Below are positions 108-6,095 of a DNA stretch of 6,144 bases, piece by piece. The stretch spans positions 1 through 6,144 of the forward strand of contig JBFLYA010000218.1 in NCBI GenBank assembly GCA_040757115.1, given 5' to 3'. Every line of letters begins with the position of its first letter. The first letter of the stretch is position 1. Both the position numbers and the translations under genes were made by a program. Below the pieces are notes generated by a model that was not told the origin of the DNA, searched no databases, and saw only the letters and a list, made by a program, of their open reading frames with translations. The DNA comes from a bacterium (GTDB lineage: Bacteria > UBA9089 > CG2-30-40-21 > SBAY01).

Positions 108-147
108 CTAACCGCACAGGTGGAAAAAATTCCACCTGTGCAGTTAG
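108..147. repeat. 40-bp near-perfect palindrome (CACAGGTGGAA family)
   Basis: Two 18-base arms (108-125 and 130-147) are complementary at 17 of 18 positions around an AAAA loop. The single difference is C113 against T144 in arm sense, which would be a G-T pair. The core is GCACAGGTGGAA / TTCCACCTGTGC. Degenerate relatives occur at 446-487 and 1005-1039 and a half copy at 4755-4768, so this is a dispersed repeat. No T-run follows it on either side, so it does not look like a plain intrinsic terminator. Confidence 0.75.
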
Positions 148-385: not shown

Positions 386-445
386 TTGAGAAAGTTATAG
401 ATATTTTCGTGCAAAAGTTAGTTGTCAGATTATTGCTAATAATTT

Positions 446-487
446 CTAACTGCACAGGTCAAGAATTTTTTCAACCTGTGAAATAGG
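446..487. repeat. Imperfect 42-bp palindrome, left edge of the GxxExxY module
   Basis: The left half begins CTAACTGCACAGGT, identical to the arm of the palindrome at 108-147. The right half ends ACCTGTGAAATAGG, which recurs inverted at 1005-1018. The CACAGGT/ACCTGTG stem (453-459, 474-480) is perfect and the AT-rich centre is imperfect. A second hairpin precedes it: GTGCA-AAA-GTTAG (409-421) can pair with CTAACTGCAC (446-455), so the two structures compete for the same bases. Confidence 0.6.
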
Positions 488-506
488 AATATTTTGATCG
501 TGGTTA

Positions 507-541
507 GTATAAGAAAGGGGATAAGGGGATAAAGGGGATAT
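507..541. repeat. Inner inverted repeat, left copy (GGGGATAA tandem units)
   Basis: GTATAAGAAA is followed by three tandem units GGGGATAA, GGGGATAAA and GGGGATAT (517-541). The stretch overlaps the start codon of the GxxExxY gene and supplies its only Shine-Dalgarno-like bases. It is complementary, with gaps, to 926-967. Confidence 0.55.
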
Positions 542-920
542 GGAGATATCAAAAGAATATCAAGAAAATTTACTTACTGAGATAATAATTCAATGTATTA
601 TTAAGGTACACCAGACACCGGGTCCAGGTTTTCTGGAAAGTATTTACCGCAGGGCAATGGTAATTGAACTTACAAAACAGGGATTGAGAGTTGAGACAGA
701 GAAAGAAATACTAATCTACTACGAAGGAGAAGAAGTTGGGAAACACAGATTGGATATTCTTGTAGAAAGCAAGGTAATAGTAGAACTAAAAACGGTGGAG
801 GAATTAAGCAAAGCTCATTATGCTCAGGTTCGCTCATATTTAAAAGCTACAGGTGTAAAAGTGGCTATTCTTGTAAACTTTGCTAAAGAAAAGGCAGATT
901 TTTTAGAAGAGTGGAATTAG
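540..920 (+). CDS. GxxExxY protein, PD-(D/E)XK nuclease-like family
   Basis: This is a 126-residue soluble protein without signal peptide or membrane segment, a normal length for the family. The family-defining motif is visible as G30-F-L-E33-S-I-Y36, inside PGPGFLESIY. A nuclease-fold signature follows: D72 in RLDILV, then E82-L-K84 in IVELK, then Q96 in the AQVRSYLKATG segment. Families of this kind are assigned to the PD-(D/E)XK superfamily, but the biological role is not established and activity here is inference. The ATG at 540 is preceded by three GGGGATA-type units (517-541). The nearest GGGG is only two bases from the ATG, so the one at 525-528 is the more usable ribosome site. The gene stands alone between inverted repeats, suggesting acquisition as a unit. 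Confidence 0.88.
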   Translation: MEISKEYQENLLTEIIIQCIIKVHQTPGPGFLESIYRRAMVIELTKQGLRVETEKEILIYYEGEEVGKHRLDILVESKVIVELKTVEELSKAHYAQVRSYLKATGVKVAILVNFAKEKADFLEEWN

Positions 921-925
921 AATAA

Positions 926-967
926 TATCCCCTTATCTCCTTAATCTCCCTATCTCTTTTTCTTACA
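926..967. repeat. Inner inverted repeat, right copy
   Basis: The pyrimidine-rich stretch starts ATATCCCCTTATCTCC just after the GxxExxY stop codon and ends TTTCTTACAC. Its complement reads GTGTAAGAAA followed by GGGAGATTA/GGAGATAA/GGGGATAT units, matching 507-541 with small gaps. Confidence 0.55.
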
Positions 968-1000
968 CCAAGTAGTGGAGTATAATTTTGTTTTCCCATG

Positions 1001-1030
1001 TCGACCTATTTCACAGGTCGAATTTTTTTT
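1001..1030 (+). terminator. Probable intrinsic terminator after the GxxExxY gene
   Basis: The stem TCGACCT (1001-1007) pairs perfectly with AGGTCGA (1015-1021) over a 7-base loop, followed by A and eight T (1023-1030). It could end the GxxExxY transcript before the scpA promoter. The stem is only 7 bp with four G-C pairs, so strength is uncertain. It lies within the repeat copy at 1005-1039. Confidence 0.45.
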
Positions 1031-1039
1031 GACAAATGG
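1005..1039. repeat. Right-edge repeat of the GxxExxY module
   Basis: CCTATTTCACAGGT (1005-1018) is the exact complement of 474-487. The following GAA, T-run and TTGACA correspond to the TTCTTGACC seen on the minus strand of the left copy (456-465). The last part is degenerate. The repeat supplies the -35 hexamer of the scpA promoter. Confidence 0.55.
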
Positions 1040-1057
1040 ATGATTTTGTGATATGAT
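1029..1057 (+). promoter_or_regulatory. Sigma-70-type promoter for scpA-scpB
   Basis: The -35 TTGACA (1029-1034) is a perfect consensus, the spacer is 17 bases, and the -10 is TATGAT (1052-1057, five of six). Transcription would start near 1064, leaving a leader of about 57 bases before scpA. No competing promoter is seen between here and the gene. Confidence 0.75.
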
Positions 1058-3202: not shown

Positions 3203-3210
3203 AGCCTTTT

Positions 3211-3302
3211 TAAACACCGAAAAACGCGAAAAACACGAAAAAAAGATATTTTCCTCTCTGTTTCTCTGCGTCTCTGCGGTAAATTACCCCCTGAACGGTT
3301 AC
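3211..3302 (-). repeat. Dispersed spacer repeat (CACAGAG / CCGTTCAGGG type), copy 1
   Basis: Read on the minus strand it starts GTAACCGTTCAGGG (3302-3289), runs through CCGCAGAGACGCAGAGAAACAGAGAGG (partly quoted: CGCAGAGAAACAGAGAGG) and ends in TTCGTGTTTTTCGCG. The first 14 bases are identical to 6018-6031, and the CAGAG-rich block follows in both copies. It fills most of the gap between the convergent ttcA and gatC genes. No coding potential is seen. Confidence 0.6.
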
Positions 3303-3664: not shown

Positions 3665-4282
3665 TTAATGTCCTCCGCCTTCTTTAGCCTCTTTCTTCCA
3701 TTGGTATAATCGAGGATAGAGTTTATTATGTAGATATTGAGTCCTTACTGCTTCTAATTTTTCTTTTACCTCTATATCTTTTTCTGCCTTATTTAAAAGT
3801 CCCAGTTCAATCTGGCACATCGTGATTATTTCTTTTCTCTGTTTAATCCAGGGAGCATTCTGACTGGCGTCTTTAGTCTCTAACCAATATAGTTTATCTT
3901 TTTGTTTTTTTATGGTGCGTGCTATTTTTTGTTTTGTTGCTTTAGGTTTGTTCAGGTCGATGAGACTAAGTGCCTCGAGCACCACATCGGGAGTAACATT
4001 AAATCGGGTGGATAATTCGACAATAATTTTTAATGTCGTTTCATCTAATTTGTAATCTTTATACAGTTTGAGTAACTCATTTAATTGATTTCCTTCTGTT
4101 CTGGTAGTTTCTGCAATCCATGTTTTTGTCTTTTTTTCTCTTAATTCCTTTTCTTGTTTAAGCACTTTTTGTTTTTCAGCGGTTTTATTATAAACAATAT
4201 TATAAGTCACAATAAAGACTATTACCGTTATTGTGACTAATATTATTAGACCAATGATTTTACTTATTATTTTTAACAACAT
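3665..4282 (-). CDS. Unknown membrane-anchored, highly charged protein
   Basis: I do not recognise this family. The 205-residue product has one N-terminal membrane helix (about 5-28, [23 protein letters not shown] in part). A lysine- and glutamate-rich segment follows (about 33-55, [16 protein letters not shown]) that could form a coiled coil. The rest is a helical soluble part without cysteine-based or catalytic motifs; it includes [27 protein letters not shown] and ends in GGGH. The helix is probably a signal anchor with the C-terminal part on one membrane face; the orientation is not clear. The ATG at 4282 has AGAGG (complement of 4292-4296) nine bases upstream. A TTG one codon earlier (4285) is an equal-frame alternative. 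The start lies inside the end of the dCMP deaminase gene (23-bp overlap), which supports coupled translation. Confidence 0.8.
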
Positions 4283-4709
4283 CAATATTTGCCTCTTTTA
4301 AGAGATTCATTGCTAACTCATCCGGATACGCACCTTCATAGACTATCTTTTTAATTCCAGCATTAATTAACATTTTAACACATAAAATACAAGGTTGATG
4401 GGTGCAATAAAGTGATGCTCCATTAATACCCATTCCATGTAATGCAGATTGAATAATAGCATTTTGTTCAGCATGTAATCCCCGGCAGAGTTCATGTCGT
4501 TCTCCAGAGGGAATTTGCATTTTATCCCGCAGACAACCTATTTCATCACAATGTTTTAGTCCTGTCGGAGCACCATTATAACCGGTAGATAAAATATACT
4601 TATCTTTAACGATAACGGCGCCCACCTGCCTTCTCAGACAGGTCGAGCGTTTCGCAACCAAGTGAGCAATTTCCATAAAATATGTATCCCATGACGGTCT
4701 TGTTTTCAT
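4260..4709 (-). CDS. comEB: dCMP deaminase (ComEB-like)
   Basis: The enzyme deaminates dCMP to dUMP, feeding thymidylate synthesis in the cytoplasm. The 149 residues carry the full zinc-site signature: H79-A-E81 in [10 protein letters not shown] and P106-C107-I-L-C110 in THQPCILC. Glu81 is the expected proton shuttle. The dCMP-specific context is also present: [12 protein letters not shown] (4-15), [14 protein letters not shown] (21-34), GYNGAP (43-48), HCDEIGCLR, and [11 protein letters not shown] (67-77), with cysteine/histidine residues that in relatives bind a second zinc. ComEB in Bacillus lies in a competence operon, but no competence genes are here, so plain nucleotide metabolism is the better reading. 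An in-frame stop lies two codons before the ATG, fixing the start. No ribosome site lies close; GAGGAGGG is 31 bases upstream. It is first in a cluster with the unknown gene and gatC. Confidence 0.94.
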
Positions 4710-4777: not shown

Positions 4778-4994
4778 GTTATTAGTCAAAATTTTACTCA
4801 GGGTGGATAAGTAAAAAATCCCAAATCCCAAGCACCAAATTCCACATACCAAAAAGCGAATTAGAGATTAGTGAATTAGAGATTAGATTTTACTAATTCG
4901 CTAATTCGCTTAATTCACTAATTCACTAATTGGAATTTGTGATTTGGAATTTCATAGCCATATCTGGGTCAAATTTCGATTAATAAGTGCTATA
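4771..4994. mobile_element. 224-bp foldback MITE-like element
   Basis: Terminal inverted repeats of about 31 bases begin TATAGCA (4771) and end TGCTATA (4994), with roughly 26 of 31 matches. Inside lies a second inverted pair (CCAAATCCC...AAATTCCA at 4821-4843 against TGGAATTTGTGATTTGG at 4931-4947). A third pair comes from tandem units: two 15-mers of GYGAATTAGAGATTA (4856-4885) against CTAATTCR octamers (4893-4931). The whole can form one long hairpin and encodes no protein. Ends of the form TA-TAGCA...TGCTA-TA would fit insertion at TA, as for IS630/mariner-related MITEs, but the relation is not demonstrated. A relative of its end lies at 3151-3202. Confidence 0.55.
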
Positions 4995-5055: not shown

Positions 5056-6021
5056 ATGCGTGAAAGATACACTGATTGGAAAATATTTTTTATTTTCTAT
5101 CTTCCATTAGCCTTCATTACTACCTACATCCACATCCGATTTACCAGTGAATTTGGTTATGAGTGTGAGGTATTTGGCAAACCTAATGGTCATTCAGCCA
5201 TCATAGAAGGACAAGCGTTTGCTCCAACTCAATATCGAATATTAATGCCATTTTGTGCAGAGTTTATCCATCAAGTGCTAAATATCTCTATTGCCAGTAG
5301 TTATCATTCACTCCGTGTGATTACCACATTTTTAGTTCTTTCGCTTTTTCATATCTACCTTACCAGATGGTTTGATACACCAAAGGCACTTATTGGCACA
5401 CTTTACCTCGCTGGCTCGATTCCTTTATCTTATCTGTATTGGCCCTATCCCCAGGATATGTTTAACTTAATGATGTTTATCATAGGATTCATCGCTATTC
5501 GTGAGCATAAAGACAATTGGCTTTATCTTATCCTCATCTTAGGCGGCCTGAATTATGAAACGATAGTGTTTTTAATCTTATTCTATTTCTTCTATCATTC
5601 TGGGCAGATGAAGTTTAAAAAATTAATTTTACGGACAATAAGTTATCTGGCAATTTGGACTTTAGTTATGGTTCTAATTCGCTTAAAATATGGACTTTTA
5701 CCCAATTTTATGGATAATCAGGTTCATTTAATTGGCTATCCAATGTATCAAACTAATCTAAAGATGTATGCAAACATCTTTAAAAATATCTCTTTAACCA
5801 ATGGTTGTTTTTATATCTTTTTGCTTTTTGGTTTTTTTTGGATATTAGCCTTTCTTCATCTGAGTAAAAAGCCAAAATTTTTAGTAAAAACGGCGTGGGT
5901 AATTCCGATATATTTAGTATTTCATTTTTTCATCGCCAGTTTTGGTGAAACACGGGTATTTCTACCGTTGTTTTTGTTACTTATTCCTCTGGGACTTTTT
6001 TCAATATTTAAAGTTTGGTAA
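5056..6021 (+). CDS. Polytopic membrane protein, possibly glycosyltransferase-like
   Basis: The 321-residue product is strongly hydrophobic with about eight or nine membrane helices (near 9-27, 88-102, 109-128, 134-148, 155-178, 190-209, 248-268, 278-294 and 299-318). A polar loop of about 60 residues follows the first helix. It contains APTQYRILMPF (56-66), which resembles the 'QYR.L.P' segment of uncharacterised bacterial membrane proteins related to lipid-linked glycosyltransferases. GGLNYET (163-169) and FGETRVFLPL (296-305) are further polar motifs at helix borders. This is a family resemblance from memory, not a firm assignment, and no acidic DxD-type site is evident. No signal peptide is expected because the first helix is an anchor. 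The gene is transcribed alone, apparently with almost no leader. A dispersed repeat starts on its stop codon. Confidence 0.8.
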   Translation: MRERYTDWKIFFIFYLPLAFITTYIHIRFTSEFGYECEVFGKPNGHSAIIEGQAFAPTQYRILMPFCAEFIHQVLNISIASSYHSLRVITTFLVLSLFHIYLTRWFDTPKALIGTLYLAGSIPLSYLYWPYPQDMFNLMMFIIGFIAIREHKDNWLYLILILGGLNYETIVFLILFYFFYHSGQMKFKKLILRTISYLAIWTLVMVLIRLKYGLLPNFMDNQVHLIGYPMYQTNLKMYANIFKNISLTNGCFYIFLLFGFFWILAFLHLSKKPKFLVKTAWVIPIYLVFHFFIASFGETRVFLPLFLLLIPLGLFSIFKVW

Positions 6022-6095
6022 CCGTTCAGGGATATAGCCACAGAGTCACAGAGAACACAGAGGGAATATATAACCACGAATGAACACGAATAATA
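6018..6095 (+). repeat. Dispersed spacer repeat (CCGTTCAGGG / CACAGAG type), copy 2
   Basis: GTAACCGTTCAGGG (6018-6031) is identical to the complement of 3289-3302. A CAGAG-rich block follows (CACAGAGTCACAGAGAACAC, then AGAGGG), then ACCACGAATGAACACGAATAA (partly quoted). The repeat includes the stop codon of the membrane protein (6019-6021). The remaining bases to 6144 show no gene, hairpin or promoter that I can support. Confidence 0.6.

Follow-up and report, generated by a model that had tools for sequence, protein, structure and literature searches.

Parts of the unit described here have counterparts in a number of known systems. In Coxiella, an rRNA intervening sequence (IVS) contains an S23 open reading frame (ORF) preceded by tandem GACAGAT heptamers, has a 28-bp terminal stem and is excised by RNase III (PMC4990558). 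It has been described as a selfish element, and the function and origin of rRNA intervening sequences are called unclear (PMC4990558). The mobile insertion cassette of qnrS2 (PMC5444012) combines IS-type ends and a target duplication with a passenger, lacks a transposase and is accompanied by a resident insertion sequence (IS) with such ends. Heptamer repeats are also described for Beggiatoaceae (TAACTGA, PMC4679880), almost all of them direct and not inverted around a gene.

The DNA that we analysed is a window of 6,144 nt (the whole stretch, at its full length) from a bacterial genome of 4.3 Mb in 462 contigs (G000; C-numbers denote its contigs). With good confidence we interpret one part of it, from its sequence, as a 549-bp non-autonomous transposon with ISKra4/ISLre2-like ends, carrying a GxxExxY gene enclosed by arrays as its cargo and moved in trans by an IS. 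Its features are as follows.

464..471, no strand assigned: left 8-bp target-site duplication AATTTTTT, an exact direct repeat with 1021-1028
472..487, plus strand: left terminal inverted repeat CAACCTGTGAAATAGG (consensus CGACCTGTGAAATAGG), shared with the IS at C221:1160-2819 and with other copies in the genome
504..549, plus strand: left inner arm, an array of AAGGGGATA / GGAGATA-like units that overlaps the start codon; similar arms at C2, C4, C7 and C10
540..920, plus strand: GxxExxY / PDDEXK_3 gene, 126 aa, with D72, E82, K84 and QxxxY intact (PF13366 7e-39, TIGR04256 5e-39, homologue alignment, AlphaFold pLDDT 90)
899..904, plus strand: run of six T, 2 nt longer than in sister copies (C33, C76 and others), so that the final residues are read in a shifted frame
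925..971, minus strand: right inner arm, in which the left array recurs in inverted form (repeat comparison)
1005..1020, minus strand: right terminal inverted repeat, an inverted match to the left end
1021..1028, no strand assigned: right 8-bp target-site duplication AATTTTTT, an exact direct repeat with 464-471

By its anatomy the unit can be classed as a MITE or mobile insertion cassette that carries a passenger: its ends are shared with a transposase-bearing IS, its 8-bp duplication is as long as that of the IS, and it has no transposase of its own. It differs from mobile insertion cassettes in that the passenger is a nuclease-like gene and not an adaptive trait, and in that this passenger is an inverted-array module also found in other carriers. 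The likeness to the Coxiella IVS (PMC4990558) consists of one small ORF within complementary terminal repeats, together with tandem units. Unlike an IVS, however, the unit is intergenic (upstream of scpA) and encodes a PD-(D/E)XK protein, and arms of this kind lack an RNA-strand bias in broad sets of loci. Since it does not lie in rRNA, we reject the identification of its core as an rRNA IVS; a search of the window likewise gave no Rfam match.

The first-pass annotation had reported a 14-bp outer inverted repeat (474-487 / 1005-1018), which is real and slightly longer: 470-487 and 1005-1022 are complementary over 18 nt at 94%. Alignment of the genome copies shows sharp ends at 472 and 1020, closed on both sides by 16-bp terminal inverted repeats. 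When G000 was searched with the terminal 16-mer, a perfect pair was found 1,660 bp apart at C221:1160-2819, enclosing a 369-aa ORF that matches the NCBIfam models of ISKra4 (2e-22, 79.9 bits) and ISLre2 (3e-15, 56.5 bits). Given that these scores lie far under the curated cut-offs (205 and 200), the element can only be called ISKra4/ISLre2-like, the likeness consisting of matches to both models, short ends, an 8-bp duplication (here AAAGATTT) and a length of 1.66 kb; it is probably a divergent relative. Fragments of similar transposases are present at C275, C66, C72 and C268. The only ORF inside the window unit is GxxExxY, and outer ends of the same type also enclose unrelated gene-less sequence (C32, C44, C290 and C153). 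Sequence comparison thus assigns the outer layer to an ISKra4/ISLre2-like IS. As the ends are common to this IS, to gene-broken copies and to unrelated gene-less sequence, the unit appears to be a non-autonomous passenger-carrying element, and given the identical ends it is most likely moved in trans by the IS transposase. The earlier suggestion that the encoded nuclease recognises the outer palindromes finds no support, because the ends belong to an IS, surround unrelated contents at the four places just mentioned (the kind of finding that the first-pass annotation had itself set as refuting), and are absent from most other GxxExxY copies in the genome.

A sequence search with window positions 440-1045 yields 65 matches in G000 (copy numbers here come from searches together with individually retrieved genome stretches). 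Near-full copies with 95-98% identity are located at C33 and C76, the copy at C344 is truncated by the contig end, and many others are shortened; with so many near-full and partial copies elsewhere in the genome, the layout is not due to chance. An exact 8-bp target duplication surrounds 7 of the 12 complete copies, against 2 of 132 mismatched flank pairs; the remaining 5 are without an exact duplication. Two 362-bp copies (C267 and C16) are 99.4% identical, have the identical internal deletion of the gene and occupy different sites with duplications of their own, which argues that gene-broken copies have moved and that an intact GxxExxY gene in cis is not needed. The view of the first-pass annotation that this could be a mobile non-autonomous unit is therefore borne out by its copy number, its target duplications and the derivatives that moved after internal deletion. 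For the copy at C55 an insertion-free counterpart with one target copy (GAAAATAG) is present in the sister genome G001, though as a repeated sequence it may be a paralogue. The scpA gene of G001 (98% identity) is without the unit; the DNA upstream is unalignable and so is silent on insertion. A phage origin was rejected, as 50,697 phage records yielded no match; among plasmid sequences only distant homologues were found.

Some further palindromes lie close by. Positions 446-459, the first 14 nt of the span as originally reported, form one half of a different palindrome, which lies outside the element. It is of the kind seen in the palindrome CTAACCGCACAGGTGGAAAAAATTCCACCTGTGCAGTTAG at window positions 108-147, and the C76 copy sits inside a similar one; this type resembles a pair of related IS ends that face outward, with a short A/T spacer between them. 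The minus strand of 4260-4709 encodes an ordinary neighbour, a dCMP-deaminase-like gene (ComEB model 4e-38, under the cut-off).

The first-pass annotation had rightly placed a single small PD-(D/E)XK-like gene inside the repeats. On profile comparison its product is a clear member of GxxExxY / PDDEXK_3 (TIGR04256, PF13366), scoring 133 bits against cut-offs of 35 and 22, and the residues D72, E82, K84, Q96 and Y100 as well as those of the GxxExxY motif are invariant in an alignment of 27 homologues. The GxxExxY profile has 68 matches in G000, many of which are partial genes. GxxExxY and S23 are both small, widespread protein families for which we know of no established role. Searching the PDB by sequence was unproductive (best E 0.31), and it is the AlphaFold model that points to a PD-(D/E)XK nuclease fold of the Cas4/RecB-like kind: the nearest structure is the Cas4 protein SSO0001 (Foldseek E 2e-4; superposition with Z 9.8 over 99 residues at 3.9 A), with AdnAB, LHK-Exo and Hjc-like resolvases ranking below it. 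A shared fold does not establish function. Besides the fold, the D-ExK-QxxxY residues are common to both, but with just 126 aa the window protein has no Cys cluster, helicase part or CRISPR context. The Cas4 models gave weak partial Cas4b matches only (E 0.0016) and none over the full length; for this reason, and for want of the Cys cluster, we do not count the protein as a Cas4. Where sister copies have four T the window gene has six, which alters the C-terminus from ...ADFRRVELE to ...ADFLEEWN, and given these two extra T the window copy may be decaying.

The inner repeat, annotated earlier as an imperfect repeat at 507-541 / 926-967, also proves real. It is an imperfect array of AAGGGGATA/GGAGATA-like units extending over about 504-549 and 925-971. 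As had been noted, the left arm provides the bases before the start: it is the source of a purine-rich stretch there and extends across the start codon. Nearly all other GxxExxY genes in G000 are flanked by inverted short-unit arrays as well, with a unit that varies by protein subfamily (CGCAGAG, CGCAAAG, CACGGAG, ACGAATT, CGCAGATT, GGAGAAA and GGGGAAA; GGGGATA in the window), and these genes have differing outer ends or none. One such end class, GTAACYRTTCA, carries both GxxExxY derivatives and S23 genes, and shows exact 8-bp duplications in 17 of 67 candidate pairs (4 of 4,422 mismatched pairs). The 13-mer GTAACYRTTCAGG occurs 379 times in G000, against 2 occurrences for a control; ends of this type flank an IS66-family transposase gene at C277 (1,563 bp, duplication not visible). 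Arms closely resembling the inner arms of the window lie within IS66-type GTAACCGTTCAGG ends at C2, C4, C7 and C10, and GTAACCGTTCAGG ends also bound an IS66-family transposase gene. Window-type inner arms are thus found in two carriers (with ISKra4-like and with IS66-type ends), which indicates that inner arms and outer ends are separable modules.

More arrays are present elsewhere in the window. Gene-less nested inverted arrays, with AAATCCCAAGCACCAAATTCC-type arms around GCGAATTAGAGATTAG-type arms, cover 4823-4952 and have units resembling those that flank S23 genes elsewhere; those at 3210-3302 and 6018-6095 adjoin GTAACCGTTCAG ends (3291-3302 in reverse; 6018-6029 forward, followed by CCACAGAGTCACAGAGAACACAGAG). 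At one locus of G001 (L220, on C89 of that genome), with matching places at C39, C118, C30 and C116 in G000, two GxxExxY units adjoin repeats that resemble integron attC sites (GTCTAAC...) and are many-copy in G000. Such attC-like repeats may be a third carrier of GxxExxY units.

The arrays extend far beyond this genome. From a collection of species-level genomes we took 80 named GxxExxY loci, 73 of them with full flanks. The scan was made with a profile of 9 proteins (a profile of all 27 being too diverse), and consequently the sample consists mainly of the LGPGLLESAY clade and close relatives of the query proteins. It includes Acidobacteriota, Cyanobacteria, Nitrospinota, Alpha-, Beta-, Gamma- and Zetaproteobacteria, Chloroflexota, Planctomycetota, Verrucomicrobiota, Hydrogenedentota, Armatimonadota, Omnitrophota, Bacteroidota, Chlamydiota, KSB1, Neomarinimicrobiota and one Methanothrix. 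An inverted repeat across the gene with a score of at least 25 is seen in 57 of the 73 loci, against 9 of 195 ORFs of the same loci, and at a score of 40 the counts are 36 and 0. For the GxxExxY genes of G000 and of its relatives, a score of at least 25 is found in 14 of 19 and 16 of 20, respectively. In 72 of 77 loci at least one flank contains two or more units of the type C[AG]C[AGT][GA]AG (CACRRAG-type), and in 57 both flanks do; of 693 control windows, 8 on one strand and 11 on the other have as many. Successive units are usually 8, 9 or 10 bp apart, and 418 units are directed to the gene against 132 otherwise; in one acidobacterial locus (L251) the units are reversed and directed away from the gene.

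The proteins of these named genes share 59% identity on average, and the fourfold-degenerate positions of the genes are saturated (26.8% identical, against 25.2% expected from composition). The CACRRAG unit has hence persisted beyond the point at which neutral similarity is lost, and this speaks for selection acting on it or for its steady renewal. Protein and array similarity are correlated (Mantel r 0.45, reached in 0 of 2,000 permutations), a correlation that joint inheritance would equally yield. Taken from the sequences, the inverted arrays appear as a feature that the GxxExxY family has kept in many bacterial phyla, independent of the outer ends. In a search of mainly freely accessible literature we found no published description of inverted arrays flanking GxxExxY genes; the word GxxExxY itself is present in just 2 of 5.39 million papers.

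Similar tendencies are observed for the genes of the S23/IVP four-helix-bundle family (TIGR02436), with 27 matches in G000. In G000 and its relatives (e.g. L148-L167 and L380-L407) they have the same architecture as GxxExxY, with units that are seemingly arbitrary. A flank score of at least 25 is reached by 15 of 16 of these genes in G000, by 22 of 23 in relatives and by 9 of 126 control ORFs. By analogy, this shared architecture connects S23 genes that stand alone with the rRNA intervening sequences. At L148 (on C42 of G000), upstream of 1429, a CRISPR-like array with repeat GTAGGAAAATAAGACCTGATGAATAAGGGATTGCGAC adjoins the S23 unit.

Several explanations have to be weighed against the one we prefer. 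A one-gene transposon in which GxxExxY itself serves as transposase and recognises the 16-bp outer ends seems to us highly improbable. Transposition can involve PD-(D/E)XK nucleases (TnsA being an example), and gene-bearing copies have clean ends, with a target duplication in the case of the window copy; yet identical ends bound an IS that encodes its own transposase as well as sequence that is unrelated and gene-less, other GxxExxY genes of the genome have different outer ends or none, and gene-broken copies have moved. For the inner arrays it might be argued that they are homing sites, where the nuclease cuts gene-less arrays and repair copies the gene in. The conserved, recognition-like unit and the nuclease fold of the encoded protein would fit, as would an S23 locus (L161) at which the gene lies between direct arrays in G000 and the sister genome G001 has the array only, a difference that may reflect gain or loss. 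At another site (L222) different arrays occupy one slot in the two genomes, which are 90-99% identical in the flanks of other sites. The only GxxExxY site with a readable direction, however, shows loss. At L216 the element in G001 has arms TCTCGCAAAGGCGCAAAG, and the same place in G000 (flanks 99-100% identical) retains both arms as a bare hairpin with no gene, in which TTGTAA, the last codon of the gene plus its stop, is kept. This retention points to loss of the gene by internal deletion, and by this one site the core can lose its gene and leave a bare array hairpin. Together with the lack of a proven gene gain, this makes homing doubtful in our view.

Alternatively, the arrays may act in RNA, as a long stem around the gene that is removed by RNase III and renders insertions harmless. 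The Coxiella S23 element has a like architecture (PMC4990558), and the arms are complementary in register: those of one element are 89% matched, and the best shift by one unit gives 63% (the former somewhat favoured, as local alignment chose the register), and among 55 loci the best partner of the left arm is its own right arm in 28 cases. If a sense RNA stem were selected, G-U pairs should exceed A-C mismatches. There is no such excess in the two broad sets (125 against 122 for GxxExxY, 80 against 85 for S23); only the set of G000 and its relatives, which contains close copies, gives 90 against 49. The mismatch pattern thus weakly favours a process at the DNA level. Given also that conservation of the GxxExxY unit sequence exceeds what pairing alone requires, we regard a role in RNA as unlikely. 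A passive origin, in which short-period arrays arise by replication slippage and the genes simply happen to lie within them, would agree with the variation in unit and length and with the many bare arrays. We nonetheless think it rather improbable, in view of the strong enrichment at two particular gene families over control ORFs, the opposite orientation on the two sides of the gene and the conservation of the CACRRAG unit past synonymous saturation.

The explanation that we prefer combines two modules. A resident IS transposase would move 472-1020 in trans and produce 8-bp duplications at A/T-rich targets, as suggested by the anatomy, so that the IS ends would supply transport from site to site. 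The cargo of 472-1020 is the other module, in which inverted short-unit arrays enclose a GxxExxY nuclease gene. These arrays may be DNA sites recognised by the encoded PD-(D/E)XK nuclease, and such recognition might help the core to persist or to be copied; the window copy itself is probably decaying. That the nuclease recognises the arrays is our leading guess, made more likely by the conservation of the arrays across phyla. On the other hand, S23 genes share the architecture without a nuclease, and hence nuclease recognition cannot be the whole story; gene-less arrays may also be functionless decay products.

More tentatively, and with somewhat less than even confidence, we propose that GxxExxY genes with inverted CACRRAG arrays belong together with S23 genes with inverted arrays of arbitrary units, as a single cross-phylum class of minimal selfish elements that has not been described before. 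Here the GxxExxY array would be a nuclease recognition site, the rRNA IVS would be the one visible S23 member and IS ends would serve as interchangeable transport shells. The systematic inverted short-period arrays give GxxExxY and S23 a common anatomy and link both families to rRNA intervening sequences. Bare arrays are at least partly relics of such elements, and may explain part of the intergenic repeats in genomes of this kind. For the GxxExxY family, the CACRRAG array offers a concrete substrate for a first biochemical test.
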